Shown here: in pieces, positions 36,720 to 63,856 of the stretch
Numbering within the stretch: position 1 is the stretch's first letter
How the letters are laid out: every line of letters begins with the position of its first letter
Origin: Ochromonas danica
Taxonomy: Eukaryota > Sar > Chrysophyceae > Chromulinales > Chromulinaceae
NCBI GenBank assembly: GCA_015146655.1
Contig: VKHL01000104.1
Location: 1 to 64,000, forward strand
Length of the DNA stretch: 64,000 nucleotides
Direction of reading: 5' to 3'
Made by a program: the position numbers and the translations under genes
Notes under the pieces: model-generated
What the model was told of the DNA's origin: nothing
Seen by the model: the letters and a program-made list of their open reading frames with translations, nothing else
Databases searched by the model: none

Positions 36720-38410
36720 TTAACTTGATAACGGTCTTGTTAGCCATCCAATCCACCCAACAAACGCTTCCCGACTCCTTTGCATGAGTTGTAAAAGCAT
36801 GATTAAGACTTTGTCCGTCGCACTTGCAAGTTTTCGCAATGGTGCAAAGAATATTCTCAACAAGTTTCGCTCGGCACGCTGTTGTTGATAATCAAACTCT
36901 GATTGAGCGACTAACATAGGACTGAAATCAATTTCAGCTAATGCAAAGCCTAACGTCCATTCCACTTCTTTCCCACCAACTTCCAATGCAAATGTAATGC
37001 TGCGACCATGTCGATCAAATCCAAAGCCCTTCTCTAGTAAAGTGATAATGTAAAGGACTTCAAAGCAACGATCTTGTAGTTGATCTGTTGCAGTCCATGG
37101 ATGTTTGGCAGGACCTTGGAAAGCTTCATATAAACTACTCCATTCCATTCCACAAAACGTCATGGCTGCACTTTCGATCTCATCCAATGAAGGGGCAGGC
37201 CAAAATTCCAAGTCCATTGGACCTAATTCTCGCATACAGTCTAGAGCATAATAATATACACTCATAGCATAGAAATGATGACCATGAACTTCTGGATGTT
37301 CAATCTCATCAATAGGTGCACCACGTTTGCCTCGATCTTTACGAAGATTGTTATCATTTGGCCAAATTACTTTCTCTATAATATCAATGCACTGTTCTGA
37401 TTCACCTGTACCAACGAAAATTATACTTCTACCCACACCACCATTCATGCCAGGTAAAGTACCTCGTAAGAAACGATGATTGAGGAAACCGCATGGATTT
37501 GGTATAATTACCTCGCCACATCGTCCAGACTCTAAAATATCTTCAACAAGAATAGCCTCACCTCCTACGTCTAGATCTATCGAAGCCTCGTTTATAGCTC
37601 TGGTCATGTTGTCCATAGAACGTGCTAAGGAAGCATGAATATGTTCGGCTTGGATATAGTCCAAGACACGTTCATGAACTCGTACCACGCCATAATTCAA
37701 CCAAGAATGTGACCAGAAGTCATCCGCATGGACTTTATGCCCATCAAGAGTACCATTATAGAAAATCAACTGGGTAGAGGAACCACCCATATCTAACGCT
37801 CCTAGTAGTGGCATGTCATCTACAGGACTACAAACCAAAACACACCATGTCAACACACATGTAGACAACTTAAGAAGAAAGAGAAATTAAGTCAAACTTA
37901 CTGCAAGTTACCGTCAATGCTTCCAGCGATATAATTGGAAGCTAAGACAGCATAGAAGGCCTCGGCATGGCCATCGATCGTTCCCAATCGATCAGCAGGA
38001 ATAATAAAAGGGATATCCGTTCGTCGATTCAATCCTTCTAATAAATGATGCCATATGATGGATTGGCGTACTTCAGGAAGTAATCGCATACCAGCCGTGG
38101 CTTTGATGAAAACTGTCGTACGACTGTGATGATCTGCAGGAATACGAGATGCTGCGATTTGCAAGAGCGGTGCAATATACTCCACTACGTCTGATGGATG
38201 TGAAGAAAATGAGGATAATCCTGGTACTACTTTCCCACATGGATGACTGGTAATATTTCTATGTGCATGAATGTCAATGATGACATGGAAGACAAAGCAT
38301 CGACTCCCAGTAGATCCAGCATCAATGACAACTGCATAATCATCAATATACTCTCTTGACACTATTCTAACAATTAAGAGGACAGCAACGAACAGATACC
38401 AAAGCAGCAT
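36720..38410 (-). CDS. GDA1/CD39-family apyrase (nucleoside di/triphosphatase)
   Basis: Exons 38410-37902 and 37827-36720 on the minus strand, joined in phase 2; 538 residues. An N-terminal signal anchor (WYLFVAVLLIVRIVS) places it in the ER/Golgi lumen or at the cell surface. Apyrase conserved regions: ACR1 VVIDAGSTGSRCFVF, ACR2 FIKATAGMRLLP, ACR3 TIDGHAEAFYA (usual form DGxxEG/A) and ACR4 LLGALDMGGSSTQLIF. It hydrolyses nucleotides; the Golgi form removes GDP or UDP left by glycosyltransferases, which would complement the two sugar transporters and GT47 gene nearby. A C-terminal helix (VLIMLLQLMQ) is amphipathic rather than clearly membrane-spanning. Divergent from the channel gene at 38866. 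Confidence 0.93.
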
Positions 38411-38865: not shown

Positions 38866-41800
38866 ATGGAGATTGACAGTGACGCACAGTTTTTCACAAA
38901 AACCTCACTACAGATTGGAGATTATGTTCTCTTACAATTATCTAATCCAAATCATGGGTGGTTAGCATCGGAGGGTTTGCTCGACAATGATTGTTTTATT
39001 GTCAACGAAGCCGAAAACTTCGACAGCTGCATTTGGCAAATTCATGTGCAGAACCAATACAGTGCTGCTCGTGAGTACAAGGAAGCTTTATTACTAAGCA
39101 TCGAAGGAAATGAGATTGCCCCCTCTAATAATAAGAATAACAAGTCAGCAGATCATTTAAATCAATTACAGCGCACTGCCTTGAATGAGCAACGACTGAA
39201 TGACAAGCTCATGAACATCAAGACAGGAAAATCAGTCGCCTATGGTGACCCCGTTCAATTAAGACATGTAAAGTCGGGTAAGTTTCTTACCATTAGCTCA
39301 AGTTTACTCGCCAAAGAAGAACGTGAGAATATGTTGGTACAAGTTGATCAAGAAGGAGACTCCTTGAGTTGTGTGAACTTCCTGCCCAGATATAAATATG
39401 ACCGTGAAGGACAAAATGTTCCCAATGGTGCTGAGATTATTGTACGTGTTCATGAAAGGCCAGGTGAATATTTACATGCAGCAGCAAGTCGATCGGATTT
39501 GGATTCCAAAGGAGAAGTCAACTGTTCTTTGGAAAGTACCCACTGGACTGTCACCTTGTATCAGCGTGCCTTGGATATCAATTCCAACTATGTACTTGCT
39601 GGTCACTTGGTTACATTACAAGATCCTGATAGTTTAATGTGTATCACTCTGGAAAGACCATTTCCTCTTGACACCATTGATGCCCCAGTGGTCATGGCGC
39701 CCAACCTCAAGACTAACACATTGGAAGGTGGAGAAGGTACAAATCTCTTATGGAGTATCGAGAAGCTTAATGCAACCACTGGTGGGCCTATCTCAGTTGG
39801 ATCAGATCTGGTGATTCTTCGCGATTTGAATTCCGGGCGATACCTTCGAATTGATGAGGAAGGGGTAGTGGCTGTTCGTCATCGAACCGATGCATCAACC
39901 CTAGAATTCTTTCTTTCCCCGAAAAGCAGCAATCAAATTACACCTTTGATTGAGAAAGATTCGTCAATTCTGATCTGCAGTGAGGGACTGTGGTTTGGTC
40001 AGGCAGAGAAATCGAAAAACCAGGTCAATGGTTTGTGTGTTGGTCGATCAAATAGACTTCAAGCTGTTTCTTTACAATTAACTTGCATTGATCACAGCAC
40101 ATCGCTGATCAATGTCCATGTTGGCGTCCAGGCAACGGCCAACTTAAGGCAATTGATTGCTGCAGCAGAAGATTTCGAACGTGGTGTCATTCCTATTAAG
40201 GCTTTTGCGATGAATGTCAAAGCGAGTCTATCTGTTTTAGAAAATGTGTGTTCTTTCTTAGCAATGAGTGATACCTCTGTCAGTGATGAAGCAATTGAAA
40301 TTATGGGATCTTCTGATAAAGCCTCCATCACAGCACGTCAGAACATGGTGCGTGAACAGGGTCTAGTAGATGCTGTATTGGATGTTTTGGAACTCACTGA
40401 GCAAGGAGTGTTTGATTCAATTCAATCTCAGTATGCTCGTTCTCAGAGAGGTAGTAAGAGCAGAAAATCTGCTCATATCGATGATCCCCTCACAGAAGAT
40501 GAGCTTGATCGAACTGCTCCATTGTCCGCCAAACGGAAGAGCACTATGCGACGTACTCTTCTATCTAAGTTATCATTAAATAATACTATGAAGAATTTTG
40601 AAGAGAAGGGGCTTGGAAGTCCTTTGGCTGGTGGCAGTTCTCGTGCCAGCAGTAGAAGGAGAAGTGTGTCAGGTTCTGATTCGAGCGCTAAGGCCTCAGA
40701 AATGGCGTTGTCAAGACGAATGTCCATGTCAGCAGGTTTTGCAAATCTTTTAGAGGATGATGAAGAGCCAAATGCAGTGTTCAAGAGTTCTACTGATATT
40801 ATACGAGAAAGTACTCCAACCTCACAACAAATGGCTCAGAAATGTTTGAAGGTCTTATTGTGTCTGGTTGTGAACAATTTTGCAACACAACTCTATGTTG
40901 CTGATCGTTTGCCAATTGTGTTAAATCAAGTGAAAGATCACAAACTGGCGGTTCATTGTGTTGAAGAATTGTTGAAAGAGAATCTCACAGTTTTACAAAC
41001 AAAAGTGAGAGAACGAGAAATAGATATCTTTGTTAACCTCTTGGGGAGTTCTGAAATGAGTGTGACCTTCTTGAAGCTCATTCAAAGTACTTGCAGTTGT
41101 CCCATGGGTGTTGATGCCACACAGCGTATGGTCACTTACGCTCTCTTCGGACATTCCATTACAGAATTGGAGAGGTCTTACTCTGGAACCAGCAGGCGAT
41201 CTGCTCTAATGCAGTCCATGTCTTTCAAGTTGAATGTGAGCAAGATCGCTGTGGATATTAAACCAGGTCCTTTAGCGACATCTCGTAACCTTGTGATGAA
41301 GTTGTCCGCCAATCGAGAGAATTTGACCCCTGTCACATGGAAAGACTTCAGTGTCTATTGTCCTGAAGATCCCATGGATCATGTTCTTGGATATGCTGAA
41401 CTTAGCGAAGGATTGCCTGAGATTTATGTTTCTTGGACTATGAGGGGAATCGGCGGAGAATATTCCATGGAGAGCTTGTTTGGTACTCGTGATAAAGTTC
41501 CCCTCATGTCAGTTTGTGCAGCTGCTAGAGCAACTCTCATTAGTCGGTTTGCAAGAGGAGATGAACAGCAGGGAAAGTCAGGGACAGGAAGTGGGAGAAG
41601 GAAGCCATCCATTTTAATGCTTCAAAAGAAGAAGCCAGCTAAAACTTCTATGCCATCCCATGTTATGTTTGCTGGTCTTCCTGCCGCGACCACAAAGAAA
41701 ACCCAAGTGGCAGAGTATCTTAACACACAATTGTTTCTTGTAGCAGATCTTTGTCTGGATCGTAACTACGTGGCTATTGGTATCCTTGAGACCATGTATG

Positions 41801-44800
41801 AATATGATCTCTTAGTTACGATGTTAAAGATGGAGATGGGTATTCCAAGCAAATTTAAAGCTGCTGCATGTCGTATTCTCCGCACAATGTACATTGATCG
41901 TGAACCTCATGTTGCAGCTAAATTCCCTCAATATATTCGCACTTCTGTATCTTTGGCAGAAGAAGCAGATTATTACTCTGATGGAGAAGAAGCTTTTAAA
42001 GCCAATGATCATTACAAATTTGCTCTTATCCAACAGATTATAGCTGATTATGTGAATGAGGAGCTTGATCCACATAATTGTGACGAACTTTCCGCTGAGA
42101 TGATGGATCTTCTCTTTGCTCTCGTTAGCTTTGGTTTCTATGTTACCTCTCCTCAGATTCTTGAAGTTCTACGACCTCTTGTACGCATTCTTGATGAACA
42201 TCAAAAAGTTCCTGCCAAGAGACTGGCAGCTGGTTTTGATTCTCGTGCCAACAACCAAAGCAGTCGAAAGTCCGGCTCTTCCAAACCTCGTAATAAGATC
42301 AAGTCGTCCAAAGTGGCTGTGTCTACAAAGCCAAAGAATTCATTAATACCTGGTGATTCTACACGCAAAATGAGTCCTAGTGCACATATGTTTGAACATG
42401 TGAAGGAGTCCATCGAAGTGGACAATGTCGCTCAATGGCGTAAGGACTTCTTGGCTTTGACGGAGTCTGTGCATTGGTCACTCTTCACTATCTACATTGT
42501 CATTGCTTCCATTGTCTTGGTGTTTTATCAAATCCTCACGAGATCTAATCAATTTGATCTCTACCTCGCAAGTACAGCGTACTTTGCTTTTGATGTCATT
42601 ATGCGTATGATGGCGTATAACTTGGTCTATCCTAAGTTGCGTCGTTTCTTTTATGATCCTTTTAACATTATGGATATTTGTATGGTAATCTTTGATATTA
42701 TCTTGTTATCATTGGATTCATATGCAAATGATGTTGGAGCTGGTCGTACTGCGCGAAGCATTCGTATTATTCGTGTGCTTCGTCTTATTCGAGTCTTCCC
42801 AGTTGTCAATGCCATCACTCATATTACGCACGATGAATTTCAAGCTGAGAGTGATGGTTTTGTCACTCCTTCTCGATATCACAATATCCAGCCCATGGAG
42901 GTGAGTTCATACAATGCAATGCATAAACATTGTTTTATTAATAGTTTGGGTTAATTCTTGGGGGTTGACTGTGTGTAACATAGGCAAGAACCATAGTGAA
43001 TATTTTAAAGATTCTCTCCATGTTTTATGATCGTATTCTAGACAAGAAGTTAGGTGAGTGACTGTCTTACAATACACTACTCTACACACTGTGTTCTGAT
43101 GGTGGGATTGTGTTATTTTGTCTTATAGACTTGGCTGTCAAGGCATTTTCTCAATGGTGTGATGAAATCAAAAAGAAGAAGAAAAGTGACCCCGTGGCTA
43201 TTTTAAACAAAATGCTCAACTCAGAAGAAAGTATCACAACAGAACTATCATCTAAGTTTGATAGTGTCTTATTAGATGTGGTGATGTATTCCGATACCAG
43301 CCTCACTCAACATGCGCTACAACTCTTAATGGTTCATAAATCACACAAAGATCAATTTTTACAAATTGCAGAGAAAATCCAAATTGTTTATTCTCCTCGT
43401 ATTGAAGCCATTTGTAAGAATTTGACTCAGATGGTACGTGATTTAAAGAGTTTAGCAGAGATGTTTGAGATTTGGTGTGATTTAGAAAGTGAAGAAGATC
43501 AACGATCTGCTCATCGATGTGGAGAGATCTTAGGCAATATTAAAGGTTATCTCACTAATACCAATGATGATCGTACACTTGGTATGCGTAGTATTGTTTT
43601 AGTAGATGAAGAAGTACAACATATTCTACGTAACTTAGATGCTATGACAGCTTTCATGGCATTATTAGAAGCTTTATATGATGGTGGTCGTGAAGAATTA
43701 AGACCTCAAGTAGAAGAGATTATGAGAAGTTGTTGTGATCTCATTTGTTGGTTTATGAAAAGTTTAGATTCTAATCAAATGGTTGCATTTAAGAATATTG
43801 GTTGGTTTATGGAATTGATTGATGCTGGAATTAACAGTTCCAGTGTAGTACGAATTATGTTAGAAGGCAATCATGGTAAGACTTTCCCTGTCTCTGTCTC
43901 AAACGTTCTCTCTCTTATCTAACCTGCTTCTTGTTCATTAGCACTGATTAAACAATGTCCTCGACGCTATCTGAATGAATGTGCACAAAAGATTGTCTTA
44001 TCGGGTCGTAAACCAGAATATCTGGATCTCTTTGTTGGAATGACAGAATTCTCACGATTTGCTTTAACTACTATTACAGGTGTTGAAGCAGAGATTTCTA
44101 GTTATCTTACAGCAAGAGAATGGAAAGAACATGTCTTACTTTGGTGTTGTTCTTATGATTCAGAAGATTATCGTGAACGTAAGAAGGCTATGCAGAAAGT
44201 CAGCAAAAATGCTAACGGTCAAGTAACAGAAGATGATCTAACACCTGATTTGAAATATCATTTACGTATTTTAGTCTTATTAGCTAATTGTAATCTAGGT
44301 CCAAAGATTCATGCGATATATCCTGTACAAGATCTATTACATGCTATTGTTGATCCTGATACAATCTTCCCTGTCAAGAAAGCACTTTCTAATCTCTTAG
44401 TAGAAGTTGTAAAATCTTCTATTGATCGTGTTGAGAAATCAGATTCCTTTTGGCAATTATTAGAAGATATGGCCTTAACATTAGAGACTTTACCAACAGA
44501 TTATGTGGAATTATCAAGAAGTCCAATTTTACGTATACAACGTGGTGAATGGATTGAAATTATTGCTAGTTTGATTGTAAGTTTCTTTGAAGGATATGAC
44601 TTTGCATTACATCAAGAAAGTCGTGAGAAGAGTATTCGTAATCATTCTGCTGATCCACGGGTTATTATTGATCGACTATATAAGGCCATTAAGACTTTAG
44701 TTGAATATCATGGTGCTAAGTTAGGCAATGTCTTACTAGATGAGTTAAGCTTTGCTCTCTCTTCTCTCAGTTTACATGTTGATATGGAGAATCTAGAGTT

Positions 44801-47800
44801 AGGTGCAAGTCCTGAACATGATGAAGAAGGAAATATGAATGAAGCGAAATTACGTATTATTCGTTTACAACATCAACGTGCAAGTATCATCTATGCAGAT
44901 GTACAACAAGTTTTCTTTCGTAAACAATTTGGTATCTTCTTACGTACAATCAAAGAGATTACACCAGATTCTAGATGTGATGTTGTTACTTTCTTGAATC
45001 GTATTCCATGGATTAAAGATGGAATGGCAGAGAATGAAGTTCGATTTGAACCACTTCTTAAGAAGCTTAGCACACATTTCCGTTCGATGATTAAACGTAG
45101 TGCAACTACACGTACATTAAGTGGTGATAGTGAACAAGTCGTCGAAACATGTGAATGGTTATTACGATCATTACGACATCAATTAGAACATGAGATGAAA
45201 GCAACATTTGATAATATCACTGATGTAGATATCTTCTCAGTGGGTCATACAAGTCATTTACATGATTTATGTGTGGCTTTTAATGCTAATGGTATCACCT
45301 ATCTATGTCTTGATCTAATTTGTATTGGCATTGAACCAAGTGTACGTTCTGAAGCTATGCGATTGTTAATTGTTATGTTACTTCGTAATCCCTTGTATAG
45401 CACTATTCAACAAACCATCTATACCTATCTATTAGAAACAGACTCGACACTCTTCTTTGAAACTGTACGAGAAATGATTGAAAATATGAAATCTTGGAGT
45501 ACAAAAGAGAATGAATCTGAAGCTGTCTTATTAAGTCAATTAGCAAATCAAGTGAATCATATTCCAGATGATATTACTGTACTTTACCTTTTACAAGCTT
45601 TATGTGAAGGTGAAGATTGTCGTATACGTGATCAAATACGTGAACAAAAGGGAAATAGTAAAGTAGTAAATATTATTGAAGCTATTGCTTCTTTTGTAGG
45701 AATCTTGTCACATGGTGAGACAATGTCAAGTGCTTATGTCATGTCTGTCTTATTACGCGTTGTATTAAGACTTGTACAAGGCCCATGCAAAGGCAATCAA
45801 GAAAACTTTGTCTTAAACTCTGAATTATTAATGGCATTAAATCGTGTTATTCGTGCATTACGTCCTGCTAACTTACCTTTATCTGCTATTTGGTCACATT
45901 ACCTGGAAGAAGTGAAAGAACATCTTGTAGAAGTCTTACGTGGTCTGATTGAAGGACAAGCAGAGAACTCACTTGTCTTTGATCGTGTGAGTAGTACCAT
46001 TGATGTCGGTGTCTTACATATCCTCATTCTAGCTAATAAGAATGATGATAGTTTACTCAAGAAGAATAAAAGTCCTTCTCAATTCCAATCTTATATGAAA
46101 AGTCATGGAAATGAAATGAATCAGTTAACTAAAGCACAAGCGAAATATTTAGTCTTAACTCAAACACTTGGACGATCTGTAGAGAATTATCAATCTTTAT
46201 CACGTGTTGATAATATTGAGAAGAATATTGCACATGTTGATATTGTCTGGAATCAACGTGTTGAAACTGTACATTTCCCTATCCCAGCTTATGTTAAAGA
46301 ACTAACAACAACTGATTTAAATGAAGTTGTGGAGAATATGGATGATGTAGGTGCATCAAGAGAAATGAAACTAGCAGACTTCTTAACAAGATGTAAAGGA
46401 CTTTATCAACGACTATTACATCAACAATTATTAAAGAAATATGGTCTATCTGACTTGTTTACGATTAAATATTATCTAGTACGATTTATGTTTGTCAATG
46501 CCTTAGTTATGAGTATTCTCTTATTAGTATTCTATGGTACGACAAGTAATGGAGAGAAGTTAACACCTGCTAATGGTAGTGTCCTGTATTATACCTTACA
46601 ACAAGGTGTTCGAAGACTCTTTGGGGAAGAAGACACTATGTCCATGTCATCAGCTTCTCGTATGCTTGAAAGTGATGGAACAGAATATCCACGTGATCCA
46701 TTATATATGGCACATTCAGTACATAGTGTCTTAGATTGTTTGAATATTATTCAAATTATCTGTGCAATCTTTATTCTTCTGATTCTCTCTGTAGTAGAAT
46801 TACCTGTTACCTTCTGTTCAGCATTAGAAAAGCATAAGATTGTTCTAGAAGCAGTCTATTATACCTTACAAGAACCTTTACCAATTTGGTATATTATCTA
46901 TCTGACTATGACCTTATTAGCCTTTTGGGTTAATCGAACTTTCATTACAGTTCTGTTATTAGATTGGGTTGTTTTAGATCCTACGACACAAGATGTTCTC
47001 TTAGCTATTCGATATCCTGTGAAACAATTGATTGCTACTTTGATTATCATTGTGATTGTCTTGAATATCTTTAGTAGTGTAGTTTTCGTCTTATATCGTG
47101 ATCATGTTACAACTTTCCGTATTGTAGATCTATGGGATGCTTTGAAATTATGTATTTCTTATGGTTTCCGTGGAGAATATGGTGTTGATCATGAGATGGA
47201 TCCAACACTTGGTGAGCGTATGGTTCTTGATGTGGTCTTCTACATTGTGGTAAGTATTACTTCTTCTGTTGCTACAACTATGACAGTTTGTATTATTGTC
47301 ATGTCTTATCTTCTTCTTCTGTCTTGATGATGTTTCATATATATATCTTATAGGTGTTGTCGATTCTTCGTCATATCTTCTTTGCTATCATTGTTGATAC
47401 ATTTGGTAAATTGAGAGAGTTGAAGATGGAACGAGAGAATGAAGCATTAAATACATGTTTTATTTGTGGGATTGAACGTCATGAATATGATCGCATTGTC
47501 AGTCCTGGTACTGGATTAACCTTTGTTCAACATCGTTTATACACTCACAATACAGCAAGTTATATCTATTTCATTCTCAATATCTGGCAACAAAATCCAT
47601 CTGAAGACAGTAGTTTGGAAATCTTCGTACGCAATTGTTTGGCTAAGAAAGATGTTTCCTGGCTACCCACTGGCATTTTACAACAAGAGATTCTTGCTGA
47701 AGAAGCTGTTCAAAAGCAAGCATTAGGTAAAGATGGAAGTGGTGGTGGATTAAAGTCTGGACTTAATGGTTCCTCTGGAGGACCTGGTGGGGGAGGTGGA

Positions 47801-49732
47801 AATGGTGGCAATGGGGGAGGAGGAGGCAAGACCAGCAAATTGCTTTCATTACATGCTAAGTCAGGTGAAATCAATGGCAATAATGAAAACCACATGGAAC
47901 TTCTTGATAAGATGAATCTCATGCAAAAGCAATTGTACAAGATCACCAAGTCTTTATCAGCGACTGAAGGTGGACAATCTCAATACCAAGCCTTACCCAG
48001 TCATCCACAACATAATGCTTCCACAGCATCAGAATCACCAGCATATTTTGAAAGTCCAAAGTTACCAAGTAAGATGGCCTTAGCTAAGACATCGAGTCCG
48101 TCGGAGAATCCCTCCACGTCATCTTCTTTTATCGTCACACAAGCTTCATCATCTGAACTTTATGCTGCTGCCCATGCGGCAGTGACGAAAGTCTCTGGTG
48201 CTGACCACCAAGTACATGTTGTCTCTGCAGTACCAACGGAGCCGATGGCAGTTATTATGGAGAAACATCCCAGAAGAAGTGATCCTCCCCCTCCTCAACT
48301 CACCAAACAACCTTCTAATGGTCCATCCCAACGTGAACAAACGGAGAAGATTATGGAATGTTTATCTAATCTTGGTAGTGGATTAACACAAGTTATGGAT
48401 CGACTTGAGAAATTGGAAAAGAAGTTTATTAAGAGTCATAAATATCTACGACAACGTATCGATCAAAAGGCATCTTCAACTTATAGTATGGGAAATACTT
48501 TGGGTGAGTTGGGTGATAGTCAAACAGAAGAAGAATCAAGTCCTAAGAAGGCAGTGCGTTCTCATGGTTATGCCTCAGCATATGCCATGACAGCTAACAC
48601 GGATGATTTGCATAGAAGCAAATCAAAGAACAGAGGAGGATCTTCTGTTGATCCTGTCGTTCAACAAGTGAAGAGTCTATCTATGTTAAATCTTGATGAT
48701 GCGCCAATCAAAGTGGTGGCTGAACCTGGTCAGCTTCCACGAGTCACTGAGCAGAGGCCTCGTATTTCTCCACGTGCTGCAGAGGAGAAGAAGTCTTCTT
48801 CTCCACGTGTTCCACCTCATGAGGAGAAAGGCAAAGACCATTCTCCTCGTCTTTCCCACAGAGAAGATGAGAAGAAGCTCTCTCCTAGAGGTGAACTTCC
48901 TCATTCTCATGTAGCTCGTGAGGAAACAAAGGATGAACTTCAACAACAGAGTAATCTCCACCATTCTCTTGATGCAATTTCAAAGCGTGTTGATGCCTTT
49001 GGCTTAGGACAAGATATTGAGTCTGAAGATAAAAGCGTCAACGATGTCAAAGAAGACGAAGACCCTATACTTGGTAGTGAGCTGAATCGTTTAGAAGAAG
49101 AGAAAGAAGAAGAAGAAGATCTGGATGAAAAGAGTGCCGACCAGTCGCATCGTGTCGGAGCAGAACCTGAAGAAGAATCCAAACCTGAGCCTGAAGAAAG
49201 TGTTCTTCCTCCATTAGATGCTCTTTCTCCTCCTCGATCTCCAAGAGCAGCCAAGGAAGTAACTCCAAGACAAGAGATTGTTGTTGAAGAGAAACCCCAT
49301 CATCACGATTCCGACGAAAAGAAGGAACATCAACATCAACAGCAGCAGCAGCAGCAGCAGCAGGAAGAAGTGGCTCCTGCCGAGTCTGAGAGTGTTGCCT
49401 CTTCTGCGCCACCTTCCCCTGAGAAAGAGGAAGTAGTCCCTGGCCAGTTGGAATCAGAAATGGAGTTACCAGCGGGGGGTGCGGGTGAAGTTCCACTTGA
49501 AAAGGTTGTTGAAGAAGTGGATGGACCCATTCTCATCGAACAACAACAACATCCAACCTCTGCTGGAACAGAGGAGAAGCAAGAGCATACAGAACTATTA
49601 CCTAGCAACGATGAGAAAACGACGGCAGCTACAGTAGAAGTGATTGACAATGAAACTCTAGAAAGTGGCAATGAGGAGAAGAAAGAAGATGTCCCTGTAC
49701 AGGACGAAGTCTCCTCCCACCATGATGAGTAG
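38866..49732 (+). CDS. InsP3-receptor/ryanodine-receptor-like Ca2+ channel with an internal voltage-sensor domain
   Basis: Five exons: 38866-42900, 42984-43053, 43129-43875, 43942-47249, 47354-49732; 3512 residues. N-terminal beta-trefoil/MIR region (about 1-390: LQIGDYVLLQLSNPNHGWLA, SVAYGDPVQLRHVKSGKFL), RIH helical repeats (about 640-760: AQKCLKVLLCLVVNNFATQL), then a full S1-S4 domain (about 1195-1315) with S2 AYFAFDVIMRMMAYN, S3 DPFNIMDICMVIFDIIL and S4 GRTARSIRIIRVLRLIRVF. The C-terminal channel (about 2450-2740) has six-helix character, a filter region LCISYGFRGEYGV, S6 IFFAIIVDTFGKLRELK and the family's zinc motif CFICGIERHEYD followed by QHRLYTH. The last 650 residues are low-complexity. 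It should release Ca2+ from internal stores. The filter lacks the usual GGVGD. Confidence 0.93.
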
Positions 49733-51807: not shown

Positions 51808-54414
51808 AGAAGTCAAGGAGGTCTCGACTGCTGCGGATTAACGTGCTGCTGCTCCCCCCTGCTGCTGTGCACTTCAGACCACGTCACTGCTCTGGCTGCT
51901 CCTCTGGCCCAAAGCACTGCCTGGCCCACTCCCCAGTGCAACATTACAACAAAAACACAGCACAGCCCCATCTGTGGCGCCTCACTCATTCGCATTCTGC
52001 ACTCACTGGAAGTGCCATACAAGTAGAAGATCTTTCGGTCTGTCCAATATATGCTCCCCCACTCCCTATATGATGATCGACTTGGATGACTCGCTGAGGA
52101 AAAGAAAAGGTCAGGAGATTTTATCCTCGGGTTGTAACAAGAAGAAACAGACAGCAGCATCGTGTTGCGACGAGGCTTCGCTCCACTCTTGTCCTTGTCT
52201 CGAGCACTATCAGAGATTCTTCGATGAGCTTCTTCGCGCCATCTCGGATCACAGCTTGGTGAGAGCACAAAGGGTGATGGAAGAATATTGTGCTGCTGAT
52301 GTGGTGATGCAGAGCACTTACTGGAGCCGAGGAGCTGTCCCTCCAGCCTGTGGGACGGCCCCTGCTTCTTCTGGCGATCCCTCTCCTTTGACTAGAATAA
52401 GTCTCGCGAATGCGCAGAGTTTGGAAGAGAGTTTGCATTGTCTGGCGGATTTCTTGGAGTTGGGCAGGGAGTTGTGTGTATCTGCTCGGAATGGAGGGAA
52501 GATGCGATTGGGCAAGAAGAGCGATAGTCCAGCACATGCTCCCTCTTCATCTTCTCTGTCTTCTTCTTCTTCTTCTCCTTCCATGCTGTCTTCATCCTTG
52601 TCATCCACACTATTGCGTGGAGGAGAGGAGGGGCAGGAAGAAGGAAATGATTGGATTGGTCTTGGCAGTGTTCATGTGGAGGGTCGAATAGGTGTTGGGG
52701 TGAGAGAGAGGACATCGAATCGATGCTCTTTGGATTCGGCTAAGCAGCAGGGACATGAGAAGAAGAACATTAAGAAGGAGAAGGAGAAGCAATGGTCATC
52801 TTCGACATCAGCTGGAATGACAACGAACGGAAGCAGGGAGGGAGAGGGTGGAACGACGCTCAGTGAGGCCTTGCTTGGATTGGCTCCCACTTCTGTAGCT
52901 GAACCATGGAACCTTCAACGGACGTGTCAAAGTCACAGCATGGCGGACTCTTCGATGTCGGTTCCATCTTCCTTGACATTGTTGCTGTCAGACGCCCAAC
53001 AAATGCATTTGACTCGGCCAGAAGGTTTGTTAGGGCTGTCTGAGGGAGACGAACCCCGTGAACAAGAACCAAAACAAGAAGAAGCTCCTGCAGGAGTCAA
53101 CTCCAAGCAAGCGGTAGGTGAGCAAAGGAGTCGAAGGCAAGGAGGAGAGTTCAGTAGCGAGAAGAGGGAAGATGGACCTCGGATCATGAGAGAGGCCGAC
53201 GCGGGAGAATATGATGAGAGAGGAGGCTGTGGAGGAGGACTGCGTTATGTACCGGTGAGGCTGAATGTATGGCTGATCTTTCATCGTGAGAGCATGAGGC
53301 TACAGATGGAGTCGTCGTCCCAGGAGAGTTTCCAGATCAAGAAGATTGAGATCCACTGCTATGACAGCACAGACGCTGCAAGCATATGCTGAAAGAAGAA
53401 GGTTCGTCTCCCTTGCATCTATTAGTTGATGGATCTTTGGAGGAGCAGAGGATGACATCCATGTGAGCATATTGGAGGATATGAGTGAGAAGACTTATGG
53501 AAGGCTGCTGGATGGAGGAGATGACTGTGCGCTGGGCGATATGACGAAGTCTTCGTTGTTGGTGTTGACATATTATTATATTGTTCTCATATTGATTATG
53601 ATATTCATTTAGATCTGTTTATCTATCCTTGCCGAATATATCTAGAGCCGTTCATTGTCTGGTAGTTTTGTCGATCTGCTTGCGTAAGTTGGTTAGCCTC
53701 CCTGGTGTGACTGATGATTGAGGGTTGGTAGAATGAAATGAGAAAGAAGATGAGACAGAAGGGGAAGGGAAGCCAGATCTGTTGTTTTTCTCTCCATCTC
53801 AATCACTTTAGCATGAAGGAGCCTCTCCCGGTCTGGCAGCTGACTGTGCGCCACTCTGCAGTCAGACAGAAAGAAGGACAGACAGACAGACAGCAGGGAG
53901 TAGCTGAGACAGCACATGGGAGTAGCGTCTGATAGCAGAACTCAGTTGAGGAGGTTGGTGGAGAGTTCAAGGAGATGTGAAGCTTCCCATATGAAGCACA
54001 CAAATCCCTCAACTTCCACTACAACAGACTGACTGAAAGAGAGAGTCAGGTCTGTCTGTGAATTTGAAGAGTAGGTTCAGAAAGTCTTACGCAAAGATAG
54101 GTGTGGAAGAAGTGATGGATCAAAAGTGGAGCTTGGAGAAGTGTAGTGGCTCTCCTTTCTGTTGGGTGGAGAGGAGGAAGGAATATCGTTCTCTGGTTCT
54201 TGGCGGAACAATCGATTGTGGAAGGCAGGAACCACTAGGAAGTGATCATGATGGGTCAGCCTTTGCATTGACCTTCCCAGACCTTCCTATGCTTGCATAG
54301 ATCGCTGACATTCTGTTTCAATCGCTGGTGGATTGCAATCTGTTTTCATCCATTGACATGAAGTGGTTGCGTACTGAAGGACTTTGGGAGGTTAGGGGTT
54401 TGGGATTTGGCGAT
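51808..54414. repeat. 2.6-kb tandem duplication, copy 1
   Basis: Matches 54941-57547 at a constant offset of 3133 bp. The reading frames within the two copies translate identically; the only base difference I noticed is G at 51826 versus A at 54959. The left edge is the assembly gap, and the right edge is where the sequences part after GGCGAT (54414 / 57547). Base composition is visibly richer in G and C than the neighbouring genes. Confidence 0.95.
52070..53392 (+). CDS. Unknown protein, copy 1 (440 aa)
   Basis: Open frame from the paired ATG at 52070 (MMIDLDDSLRKRKGQEI) to 53392; upstream in-frame codons lack a convincing start. Residues 20-120 are Cys-rich then helical (CLEHYQRFFDELLRAISDHS, VMEEYCAADVVMQSTYW), the middle 230 residues are Ser/Glu/Gly low-complexity, and the end returns to strands (LRYVPVRLNVWLIFHRESMR, then SFQIKKIEIHCYD). 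The pattern of an N-terminal LL.AI....A..VM..YCA.DVV helix and C-terminal strands is compatible with an NTF2/SnoaL-like fold split by a long disordered loop, which is only an inference. No catalytic motif. Identical to copy 2 at 55203. Confidence 0.6.
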   Translation: MMIDLDDSLRKRKGQEILSSGCNKKKQTAASCCDEASLHSCPCLEHYQRFFDELLRAISDHSLVRAQRVMEEYCAADVVMQSTYWSRGAVPPACGTAPASSGDPSPLTRISLANAQSLEESLHCLADFLELGRELCVSARNGGKMRLGKKSDSPAHAPSSSSLSSSSSSPSMLSSSLSSTLLRGGEEGQEEGNDWIGLGSVHVEGRIGVGVRERTSNRCSLDSAKQQGHEKKNIKKEKEKQWSSSTSAGMTTNGSREGEGGTTLSEALLGLAPTSVAEPWNLQRTCQSHSMADSSMSVPSSLTLLLSDAQQMHLTRPEGLLGLSEGDEPREQEPKQEEAPAGVNSKQAVGEQRSRRQGGEFSSEKREDGPRIMREADAGEYDERGGCGGGLRYVPVRLNVWLIFHRESMRLQMESSSQESFQIKKIEIHCYDSTDAASIC

Positions 54415-54940: not shown

Positions 54941-57547
54941 AGAAGTCAAGGAGGTCTCAACTGCTGCGGATTAACGTGCTGCTGCTCCCCCCTGCTGCTG
55001 TGCACTTCAGACCACGTCACTGCTCTGGCTGCTCCTCTGGCCCAAAGCACTGCCTGGCCCACTCCCCAGTGCAACATTACAACAAAAACACAGCACAGCC
55101 CCATCTGTGGCGCCTCACTCATTCGCATTCTGCACTCACTGGAAGTGCCATACAAGTAGAAGATCTTTCGGTCTGTCCAATATATGCTCCCCCACTCCCT
55201 ATATGATGATCGACTTGGATGACTCGCTGAGGAAAAGAAAAGGTCAGGAGATTTTATCCTCGGGTTGTAACAAGAAGAAACAGACAGCAGCATCGTGTTG
55301 CGACGAGGCTTCGCTCCACTCTTGTCCTTGTCTCGAGCACTATCAGAGATTCTTCGATGAGCTTCTTCGCGCCATCTCGGATCACAGCTTGGTGAGAGCA
55401 CAAAGGGTGATGGAAGAATATTGTGCTGCTGATGTGGTGATGCAGAGCACTTACTGGAGCCGAGGAGCTGTCCCTCCAGCCTGTGGGACGGCCCCTGCTT
55501 CTTCTGGCGATCCCTCTCCTTTGACTAGAATAAGTCTCGCGAATGCGCAGAGTTTGGAAGAGAGTTTGCATTGTCTGGCGGATTTCTTGGAGTTGGGCAG
55601 GGAGTTGTGTGTATCTGCTCGGAATGGAGGGAAGATGCGATTGGGCAAGAAGAGCGATAGTCCAGCACATGCTCCCTCTTCATCTTCTCTGTCTTCTTCT
55701 TCTTCTTCTCCTTCCATGCTGTCTTCATCCTTGTCATCCACACTATTGCGTGGAGGAGAGGAGGGGCAGGAAGAAGGAAATGATTGGATTGGTCTTGGCA
55801 GTGTTCATGTGGAGGGTCGAATAGGTGTTGGGGTGAGAGAGAGGACATCGAATCGATGCTCTTTGGATTCGGCTAAGCAGCAGGGACATGAGAAGAAGAA
55901 CATTAAGAAGGAGAAGGAGAAGCAATGGTCATCTTCGACATCAGCTGGAATGACAACGAACGGAAGCAGGGAGGGAGAGGGTGGAACGACGCTCAGTGAG
56001 GCCTTGCTTGGATTGGCTCCCACTTCTGTAGCTGAACCATGGAACCTTCAACGGACGTGTCAAAGTCACAGCATGGCGGACTCTTCGATGTCGGTTCCAT
56101 CTTCCTTGACATTGTTGCTGTCAGACGCCCAACAAATGCATTTGACTCGGCCAGAAGGTTTGTTAGGGCTGTCTGAGGGAGACGAACCCCGTGAACAAGA
56201 ACCAAAACAAGAAGAAGCTCCTGCAGGAGTCAACTCCAAGCAAGCGGTAGGTGAGCAAAGGAGTCGAAGGCAAGGAGGAGAGTTCAGTAGCGAGAAGAGG
56301 GAAGATGGACCTCGGATCATGAGAGAGGCCGACGCGGGAGAATATGATGAGAGAGGAGGCTGTGGAGGAGGACTGCGTTATGTACCGGTGAGGCTGAATG
56401 TATGGCTGATCTTTCATCGTGAGAGCATGAGGCTACAGATGGAGTCGTCGTCCCAGGAGAGTTTCCAGATCAAGAAGATTGAGATCCACTGCTATGACAG
56501 CACAGACGCTGCAAGCATATGCTGAAAGAAGAAGGTTCGTCTCCCTTGCATCTATTAGTTGATGGATCTTTGGAGGAGCAGAGGATGACATCCATGTGAG
56601 CATATTGGAGGATATGAGTGAGAAGACTTATGGAAGGCTGCTGGATGGAGGAGATGACTGTGCGCTGGGCGATATGACGAAGTCTTCGTTGTTGGTGTTG
56701 ACATATTATTATATTGTTCTCATATTGATTATGATATTCATTTAGATCTGTTTATCTATCCTTGCCGAATATATCTAGAGCCGTTCATTGTCTGGTAGTT
56801 TTGTCGATCTGCTTGCGTAAGTTGGTTAGCCTCCCTGGTGTGACTGATGATTGAGGGTTGGTAGAATGAAATGAGAAAGAAGATGAGACAGAAGGGGAAG
56901 GGAAGCCAGATCTGTTGTTTTTCTCTCCATCTCAATCACTTTAGCATGAAGGAGCCTCTCCCGGTCTGGCAGCTGACTGTGCGCCACTCTGCAGTCAGAC
57001 AGAAAGAAGGACAGACAGACAGACAGCAGGGAGTAGCTGAGACAGCACATGGGAGTAGCGTCTGATAGCAGAACTCAGTTGAGGAGGTTGGTGGAGAGTT
57101 CAAGGAGATGTGAAGCTTCCCATATGAAGCACACAAATCCCTCAACTTCCACTACAACAGACTGACTGAAAGAGAGAGTCAGGTCTGTCTGTGAATTTGA
57201 AGAGTAGGTTCAGAAAGTCTTACGCAAAGATAGGTGTGGAAGAAGTGATGGATCAAAAGTGGAGCTTGGAGAAGTGTAGTGGCTCTCCTTTCTGTTGGGT
57301 GGAGAGGAGGAAGGAATATCGTTCTCTGGTTCTTGGCGGAACAATCGATTGTGGAAGGCAGGAACCACTAGGAAGTGATCATGATGGGTCAGCCTTTGCA
57401 TTGACCTTCCCAGACCTTCCTATGCTTGCATAGATCGCTGACATTCTGTTTCAATCGCTGGTGGATTGCAATCTGTTTTCATCCATTGACATGAAGTGGT
57501 TGCGTACTGAAGGACTTTGGGAGGTTAGGGGTTTGGGATTTGGCGAT
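54941..57547. repeat. 2.6-kb tandem duplication, copy 2
   Basis: Second copy of 51808-54414, beginning with AGAAGTCAAGGAGGTCTC. It is preceded by unique sequence (54415-54940) and followed by unrelated sequence, so unlike copy 1 its left flank is known. Confidence 0.95.
55203..56525 (+). CDS. Unknown protein, copy 2 (440 aa)
   Basis: Same frame, start and translation as the gene at 52070-53392. A real duplicate of this age would be expected to show at least some silent changes; their absence means either a very recent duplication, ongoing gene conversion, or two haplotypes placed in series by the assembler next to the gap. Nothing in this copy suggests loss of function. Confidence 0.6.
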   Translation: MMIDLDDSLRKRKGQEILSSGCNKKKQTAASCCDEASLHSCPCLEHYQRFFDELLRAISDHSLVRAQRVMEEYCAADVVMQSTYWSRGAVPPACGTAPASSGDPSPLTRISLANAQSLEESLHCLADFLELGRELCVSARNGGKMRLGKKSDSPAHAPSSSSLSSSSSSPSMLSSSLSSTLLRGGEEGQEEGNDWIGLGSVHVEGRIGVGVRERTSNRCSLDSAKQQGHEKKNIKKEKEKQWSSSTSAGMTTNGSREGEGGTTLSEALLGLAPTSVAEPWNLQRTCQSHSMADSSMSVPSSLTLLLSDAQQMHLTRPEGLLGLSEGDEPREQEPKQEEAPAGVNSKQAVGEQRSRRQGGEFSSEKREDGPRIMREADAGEYDERGGCGGGLRYVPVRLNVWLIFHRESMRLQMESSSQESFQIKKIEIHCYDSTDAASIC

Positions 57548-63147: not shown

Positions 63148-63451
63148 TTAGCCTACGGCTGGAAAAAATAGTAAAGCATCTCTAAGCGAATGATGACGCA
63201 GGTGCGTATAGTAAAAGGCGATAGGCACATTTGCAAACATCACCATTCCGAGACATGTTTTCTTGGTAACTAAGTGTACAGAACAAGCACGAAGTGGGAG
63301 GACGACCTCACCCATGCGATGCCGTGTGAAGTTAACTCTTCTCTTGCTGTATGCCCTTGTTCTTCCATCCCACATCCCATTCCAACTCAGTAATTGGTCA
63401 ACATGAACAGCAATTGTATTAAACTTTGCTATTTTGCATTGAACAGCAAGT
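63080..63451. repeat. Tandem duplication unit A (microprotein gene plus divergent promoter)
   Basis: Resembles unit B at 63466-63856. The block from 63187 to 63270 is nearly identical to 63586-63670. At its right end it carries a degenerate copy of the first codons of the gene that begins at 63820 (GGTCAACATGAACAGCAATT), which stops after about 14 codons. Confidence 0.8.
63148..63375 (-). CDS. Microprotein with one membrane segment, copy A (75 aa)
   Basis: ATG at 63375. Basic N-terminus (RAYSKRRVNFTRHRMGEVVL) then a hydrophobic helix and a basic tail (KKTCLGMVMFANVPIAFYYT, HLRHHSLRDALLFFPAVG). The coding frame is conserved in copy B although flanking DNA has drifted, and the helix-plus-HLRHHSLR tail is identical, so selection on the protein is likely. 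Size and charge resemble small mitochondrial inner-membrane subunits, but the family is not recognised. Confidence 0.5.
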   Translation of the reverse strand: MWDGRTRAYSKRRVNFTRHRMGEVVLPLRACSVHLVTKKTCLGMVMFANVPIAFYYTHLRHHSLRDALLFFPAVG

Positions 63452-63465
63452 GATAGGAAGAGGGT

Positions 63466-63856
63466 GGAAGAACAAGAACAGATGAGAGAAGAAGAAAGAA
63501 AGGTAAAAGATGATAGGAGGTGAAAAGAATTGTTGATGTGGAGGTTGGCCTACGGCCGGAAAAAATTAGAAAAGTTCTCTGAGTGAATGATGACGCAGGT
63601 GCGTATAGTAAAAGGCGATAGGCACATTTGCAAACATCACCATTCCGAGACATGTTTTCTTGGTAGCAAAGCCCAAAGTACTAGTGAAAAGTGGGGAAAT
63701 AACCTCACCCATACGATGCTGTGTGAAGTTAACTCTTCTGTTGCTGTATGCTCTCAGAATCTTCTGTCCCACATCATCATACCACATCACATTCCAACAA
63801 CTCGAAGTAATTGGTCAACATGAATAGCAATTATATTGGACTTTACTTATTTGCAT
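63466..63856. repeat. Tandem duplication unit B
   Basis: Downstream copy, containing microprotein copy B and the true start of the next gene. Offset between the copies is about 400-418 bp, not constant because of small indels. Confidence 0.8.
63566..63787 (-). CDS. Microprotein with one membrane segment, copy B (73 aa)
   Basis: ATG at 63787 (MWYDDVGQKILRAYSNRRVN). Shares with copy A the stretches RVNFT.HRMGEV and KKTCLGMVMFANVPIAFYYT followed by HLRHHSLR, while the linker between them differs (ISPLFTSTLGFAT here). Ends ELF instead of DALLFFPAVG. Divergently transcribed from the gene at 63820 with only 32 bp between the start codons. Confidence 0.5.
   Translation of the reverse strand: MWYDDVGQKILRAYSNRRVNFTQHRMGEVISPLFTSTLGFATKKTCLGMVMFANVPIAFYYTHLRHHSLRELF

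Follow-up and report, generated by a model that had tools for sequence, protein, structure and literature searches.

Inositol trisphosphate (IP3) and ryanodine receptors (IP3Rs and RyRs) are the main Ca2+-release channels, and they are regarded as ligand-gated; in muscle, the control of release by voltage requires a second protein. Here we describe a gene, called IPR1, in a 64,000-nucleotide stretch of the genome of the chrysophyte Ochromonas danica (contig VKHL01000104.1, positions 1 to 64,000 of the forward strand; hereafter the window, to which nucleotide positions refer). The protein it encodes has the domains of the IP3R/RyR superfamily and, in mid-protein, a voltage-sensor domain (VSD) made up of four segments, S1 to S4. 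We read IPR1 as a cation channel of that superfamily whose inserted VSD makes its opening dependent on voltage together with Ca2+, and we give this reading a probability of about 0.6.

Several described systems share parts of this arrangement (papers cited by PMC number are represented throughout by extracts of their text). In skeletal muscle, Cav1.1 and RyR1 also join voltage sensing to an RyR-type channel (PMC13095418), but they do so as two proteins in two membranes, whereas IPR1 is predicted to be one polypeptide. With animal IP3 and ryanodine receptors IPR1 shares Ins145, RIH, RIH_assoc, and a C-terminal channel with a CFICG motif, but it adds the S1-S4 sensor ahead of the ARM2 domain, loses most of the IP3 contacts, and has a pore filter of the type RGEYG[VI]D. 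With the VSDs of Cav3.2, Cav1.1, and Nav channels it shares the S1-S4 sequence pattern and the predicted fold, but its VSD lacks a following S5-S6 and is embedded in the IP3R solenoid. Voltage-sensing phosphatases and SLC9C1, the Na+/H+ exchanger of sperm, likewise have a VSD without being classical voltage-gated channels; their effectors, however, are an enzyme and an exchanger, while that of IPR1 is a Ca2+-release-type channel. Finally, the oomycete PKDRR proteins are a stramenopile mix of RyR-family domains with another channel type (PMC7399828), but Pfam found no R domain in the five pieces of IPR1 scanned.

The literature searched, which had preprints and most subscription journals outside its scope, yielded no description of a VSD within an IP3R or RyR, and the extracts of PMC9694693, PMC7399828, PMC4820453, PMC11085791, PMC7016017, PMC3194816, PMC11381013, and PMC9663519 describe none. 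Papers on the IP3R homologues of oomycetes, diatoms, and parasites, again as extracts, make no mention of such a domain. The extracts of a 2024 review on voltage sensors mention channels, phosphatases, and the sperm exchanger, and no word of its text starts with 'inositol' or 'IP3R' (PMC13095418).

The voltage-sensor domain and its place in the receptor

Removal of the introns at 42901-42983, 43054-43128, 43876-43941, and 47250-47353 (GT-AG in every case) turns IPR1, an IP3R/RyR-like gene, into a single frame of 3512 residues with its stop at 49732. Along the frame follow the IP3R/RyR N-terminus, RIH domains, the S1-S4 VSD, the RIH-associated domain, the pore, and the CFICG motif. The parts of the VSD are:

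42430..42840, plus strand: inserted voltage-sensor domain S1-S4 (Ion_trans profile, match to a sequence in PDB, predicted fold)
42475..42543, plus strand: S1 (hydropathy, model helix)
42565..42627, plus strand: S2 with F..D...R (sequence; Phe, acid, and basic columns kept in relatives)
42667..42729, plus strand: S3 with Asp (the first Asp invariant, 89 of 89 aligned VSDs)
42745..42816, plus strand: S4 with Arg 1294, 1297, 1300, 1303, 1306, and 1309 (sequence)

A preliminary description of the window had placed a complete S1-S4 unit in an uninterrupted exon of about 4 kb, and this holds: the segments (42475-42816) lie wholly inside exon 1, which is 4035 nucleotides (nt) long. S2 reads FAFDVIMR, in accord with the pattern F.FD...R that had been noted, and S4, GRTARSIRIIRVLRLIRVF, does have six Arg (1294 to 1309) at every third residue (i+3). 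For S3, described as N..D.....D, the Asn and both Asp are there, but the sequence, NIMDICMVIFD, puts six residues between the Asp, not five. The VSD of IPR1 carries the sequence hallmarks of its kind: F..E/D...R/K in S2, Asp in S3, and basic residues at i+3 in S4. A six-frame scan of the window found only three 16-residue stretches with six basic residues at i+3, which are the S4 of IPR1, the opposite strand at that site, and one hydrophilic, Lys-rich stretch.

A profile search of the sensor region, set beforehand as a test, produced a match of Pfam Ion_trans to residues 1204-1315, with 41.6 bits for a 160-residue piece and 35.5 bits for the whole of exon 1 (cut-off 25). The match covers positions 4-110 of the 241 in the profile, hence the S1-S4 half only, without S5-S6. 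The best match in PDB by sequence is the T-type Ca2+ channel alpha-1H (Cav3.2; E 2.2e-13), made up of four matched stretches, the last of which scores best. Structure prediction also bore out the presence of a VSD, giving a four-helix fold that, by fold search, resembles the sensors of Cav, Nav, and Kv channels; Ci-VSP and SLC9C1 are among the matches as well (one list each).

The S2-S3 loop (KLRRFF) has a positive charge, unlike the two outer loops, which agrees with a cytosolic position of the two ends of the VSD. Linkers surround it: about 74 residues before, and about 30 (1317 to 1347) from S4 to the next aligned segment. Hv1 requires an Asp in S1, and S1 of IPR1 (WSLFTIYIVIASIVLVFYQILTR) has no acidic residue at all. 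It is therefore very improbable that the VSD by itself conducts ions or protons in the manner of Hv1, the more so since it is fixed within a channel protein in 96 of the 118 relatives that cover its position, even though VSD-only proton channels do exist (PMC13095418).

The position of the VSD in the IP3R fold was judged from a profile of 18 relatives, which aligns piecewise to IP3R1 (6mu1) over its length, for a total of 686 bits. The profile aligns to residues 704-982 of 6mu1 and resumes at 1049; between these lie the VSD positions of the profile, 1002-1141, bar a weak overlap at the end, and IP3R1 has about 67 unaligned residues at the slot. The alignment of IPR1 to ITPR2 extends to 1114/898, before the VSD. 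The boundaries given for IP3R1 are 693-1102 for the helical domain and 1103-1567 for ARM2 (PMC9663519), so the VSD falls within the final stretch of the helical domain and precedes ARM2, the most mobile domain. ARM2 shifts by about 30 Angstrom between the extended and the retracted form, a motion tied to ligand binding (PMC9663519). In IPR1 the pore domain comes about 1100 residues after the VSD, which has no S5-S6 directly behind it.

From sensor to pore

The other features of IPR1 are:

38866..42900, plus strand: exon 1 (N-terminus, beta-trefoil/MIR region, RIH, helical domain, linker, VSD); ATG-initiated open frame of 4035 nt, donor GTGAGT
38902..39567, plus strand: Ins145_P3_rec domain (IP3R/RyR N-terminal); Pfam PF08709, 104.9 bits (cut-off 23)
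40792..41145, plus strand: RIH domain (RYDR_ITPR), residues 643-760; Pfam PF01365, 33.6 bits
42984..43053, plus strand: exon 2 (first residues beyond the VSD linker); GT-AG, the relative P0002 being intronless across the same junction
43129..43875, plus strand: exon 3 (second RIH region); Pfam PF01365, 26.8 bits at 43602-43862
43942..47249, plus strand: exon 4 (solenoid, RIH_assoc, most of the channel domain); GT-AG, frame kept
45576..45842, plus strand: RIH_assoc domain; Pfam PF08454, 49.9 bits
47169..47189, plus strand: pore filter RGEYGVD instead of GGGVGD; profile alignment, IPR1-type relatives
47354..49732, plus strand: exon 5 (end of S6, CFICG motif at 47456-47470, long low-complexity tail, stop); frame continuous to the stop

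The gene model is a prediction from genomic sequence, and two adjacent genes, or a chimeric contig, might give the appearance of one long gene. In P0002, however, the VSD continues into ...PMEARTIVNVLKVLSMFYDRILDKKL in an open frame free of introns, which is the same join that splicing makes between exons 1 and 2 of IPR1. P0133, the protein of a gene model, matches IPR1 at 65% over residues 951-1503, spanning the joins of exons 1, 2, and 3. P0124, an IPR1-type protein (47% over residues 951-1650 of IPR1), has its VSD at 1250-1395 and an IPR1-type pore filter at 2738, in a single frame. Ins145, VSD, RIH_assoc, and pore occur together in 40 of the 96 VSD-bearing proteins (38 database proteins as given, plus IPR1 and its paralogue IPR2, both spliced in this analysis), and IPR2 and IPR4 show the same layout elsewhere in the genome. 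Pfam finds two Ion_trans stretches in each of P0077, P0067, and P0060; the mid-protein VSD scores best in P0077 and P0067, the C-terminal channel in P0060. With one-frame relatives at hand, P0002 and P0133 among them, we reject two genes or an artefact of assembly as next to impossible. The preliminary description had assigned sensor and IP3R-type pore to one polypeptide, and the splice frame, P0002, P0133, P0124, and the 38 database proteins support this for the predicted product. It had also drawn 42984-43875 as a single exon, where there are in fact two (42984-43053 and 43129-43875).

The superfamily domains Ins145_P3_rec, RIH, and RIH_assoc are all present in IPR1 and in the expected order (Pfam). 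SPRY and RyR repeats, which belong to the ryanodine receptor proper, are absent from the Pfam matches at E 0.1 in the five pieces of IPR1 scanned. The C-terminal S1-S6 channel domain and CFICG are present too: the 18-relative profile used here, built without IPR1, aligns to IPR1 residues 807-2827 (1128 bits), a span that includes S6 and CFICG. Ion_trans of Pfam has no match in exon 4 scanned alone. The InsP3R pore and CFICG had been described as parts of the same gene, and the frame does reach both, but the filter is not of the GGGVGD type, which is absent from IPR1 and has RGEYGVD in its place. RGEYG[VI]D is found in IPR1 and 8 others (P0123-P0127 and P0129-P0131) of the 141 proteins collected; P0128 and P0133 do not contain it, though they are IPR1-type. 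Elsewhere in the family, the commonest filter is GGG[IV]GD, with 23 of 84 non-gap rows. The IPR1-type filter may alter ion selectivity.

Two conserved glutamates, which we take to be the Ca2+-activation site, are both present in IPR1 (their columns are Glu in 132 and 111 of 134 non-gap rows). The residues of IP3R1 that contact IP3 are another matter. From the list T267, R269, S274, R504, K508, R511, Y567, R568, and K569 (PMC9663519), IPR1 keeps one of nine, R511, by a profile alignment that is loose around 265-274. To judge by this alignment, the IP3 pocket is largely lost in IPR1.

The wider family and the origin of the domain

Relatives came from three protein searches, with 2 hits, 201 hits (the best 120 of the 201 were screened), and 15 hits (two of them repeats). 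The total, including six paralogues from the 31.2-Mb genome of O. danica itself, is 141 proteins, a lower bound, the two larger searches having scored 8000 candidates each. The VSD slot is covered by 118 of them and not by the other 23. Although the preliminary description treated the VSD as a feature of one protein, 96 of the 118 carry it (presence was called by alignment columns, so that P0013, with 13.8 bits and below a 15-bit cut, counts as VSD-bearing). On the evidence of these predicted proteins, the mid-protein VSD is a widespread architecture of a large IP3R-like subfamily, not a single-protein oddity. The named relatives are from Ochromonadaceae sp. CCMP2298, Ochromonas danica, and GSChrysophyteH1; the O. 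danica entries P0026 and P0131 match at 91% to IPR5 (995 residues) and at 90% to 17% of the IPR1 query. P0121 (near IPR2) and P0123 (near IPR1) are filed publicly as 'archaeon' (EON64, EON65), and these records are probably mis-binned algal contigs.

Has the domain remained a sensor, or might it be a structural membrane anchor or a relic, tethering the solenoid after voltage sensing was lost? The paralogues offer some reason to think the latter. IPR1 has a canonical S4, but in IPR2 (contig C3, about 57 kb) and IPR4 (C3, about 117 kb) the VSD is kept with a weakened S4, and from IPR3 and IPR5 it is absent. Moreover, in 23 of the 96 proteins with a VSD, the i+3 run of S4 counts fewer than six basic residues. 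The other 73, however, retain runs of at least six at exact i+3 (six to nine), and a comparable run outside the VSD occurs in only 2 of the same 96 proteins. Among 89 aligned VSDs (those above 25 bits, an omission of weaker VSDs that flatters the counts), the S2 pattern is nearly invariant (Phe in 87, acid in 89, Arg or Lys in 85), the first and second Asp of S3 are present in 89 and 75, respectively, and basic residues fill the four core positions of S4 in 89/89, 88/89, 83/89, and 78/87. In the comparison of IPR1 with P0002, S4 is the best conserved of the segments measured. Since a plain anchor needs neither the charge pattern nor such conservation, an anchor or relic seems unlikely. The S4 of the C-terminal channel differs: an i+3 run, or even two basic residues in succession, is found in none of the 56 proteins tested, in line with the statement of the preliminary description that animal receptors have no such S4 voltage sensor. 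Each of these proteins thus has two sensor-like units, of which one is charged and the other uncharged.

VSD presence on a tree of 46 proteins, built from the columns after the VSD (32 with VSD, 9 without, 5 not covering the slot), needs three changes, as against 8.2 in shuffles, and none of 500 shuffles was as low. The VSD is found on either side of the midpoint root. The simplest reading is one old gain with later losses. Both trees made were midpoint-rooted, and with IPR1 on a long branch in the first and long branches flagged in the second, the root and the placement of the IPR1-type proteins are not firm. A recent capture of the VSD from the alga's own voltage-gated channels was considered and rejected: over the ten loci scanned (L001-L008, L013, and L014), the VSD profile never exceeded 19.3 bits, so that none of these, which are a part of the places with Ion_trans in the genome, is a close source. 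As for carriage by viruses, no relative was found in two scans of viral contigs or one of genome contigs, with a few peptide patterns each.

Contig C3 has four IP3R-like paralogues (at about 57, 106, 117, and 272 kb), two of them adjoining, with the VSD present, absent, present, and absent, respectively. IPR6 (contig C5, about 342-353 kb) is a remote open frame of 3294 residues that matches Ins145 and, at its C-terminus, Ion_trans. A scan of 2800 of its residues gave no match to RIH, and no VSD was found: the slot is unalignable, and 2800 of the 3294 residues were scanned with no Ion_trans match for one.

In the window itself, the divergent neighbour of IPR1 is an open frame for a GDA1/CD39-type nucleoside phosphatase (36723-37886, minus strand). 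Further on, 51827-54414 and 54960-57547 form an exact direct repeat of 2588 bases, with a run of N immediately 5' of the first copy. Both copies encode an identical open frame of 516 residues with no Pfam match at E 1e-5, and the repeat is either a recent duplication or an assembly artefact. Two adjacent genes for U5 spliceosomal RNA are at 63150-63255 and 63546-63652, minus strand.

Voltage, membranes, and Ca2+ release

How might the VSD act on the pore? IPR1 would, by analogy, be tetrameric. S4 would move with the voltage across whichever membrane holds the VSD. Its pull would reach the helices in front of ARM2 by way of the linker, about 30 residues long, and would raise or lower channel opening. 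The channel would read voltage and cytosolic Ca2+ rather than IP3, which would not act in the animal way.

A number of observations weigh against a channel that is gated by voltage together with Ca2+. The VSD is missing in 22 of the 118 IP3R-like proteins, so such channels can do without it, and in the genome of O. danica it is degenerate in two paralogues and absent from two others. The pore filter of IPR1 is not of the usual type, exon 4 taken alone retrieves no PDB chain at E 1e-6, and the IPR1-type protein P0124 lacks the first putative Ca2+-site Glu. The identity of S2 between IPR1 and P0002 is only 52%. When the VSD alone is compared by Foldseek, the E-values are weak (0.03 at best), and the confidence of the S4 model is moderate, with block means of 74-86 in one model and 51-79 in another. 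Finally, the global potential of the endoplasmic reticulum (ER) is about 0 mV (PMC11381013), and a VSD in the ER membrane would therefore sense little at rest.

With both of its ends cytosolic, the sensor could sit in the membrane of the pore or in a facing membrane, and an ER potential near zero favours a surface or vacuolar site, or else a protein that spans a contact between ER and plasma membrane. Perhaps, then, VSD and pore are both in the plasma membrane (or that of the vacuole), making IPR1 a voltage-gated channel for Ca2+ entry and not one for release from the ER. IP3Rs and RyRs are reported at the cell surface as well (PMC9694693), as is an oomycete protein with RyR domains (PMC7399828), but the ER is described as the main location of the superfamily's members (PMC11381013), and we regard a surface channel as doubtful, if a real possibility. 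Alternatively, one protein might bridge two membranes, with its pore in the ER and its VSD in the facing plasma membrane, and so take the role of Cav1.1 plus RyR1. The cytosolic ends of the VSD and its flanking linkers of about 74 and 30 residues would allow such a bridge, and the ER potential near zero would give it a reason (PMC11381013), but we think it quite unlikely.

If IPR1 is indeed a superfamily channel opened by voltage together with Ca2+, there would be a direct link, within a single molecule, from membrane voltage to Ca2+ release, and it would extend across a large subfamily. One genome would then offer a natural experiment, with a canonical version, two degenerate ones, two that are free of the sensor, and a remote sixth. 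It would become possible to test how the motion of ARM2 gates the pore and whether electrically driven release from stores takes place outside animals. In these cells, the release of stored Ca2+ may be switched directly by voltage.
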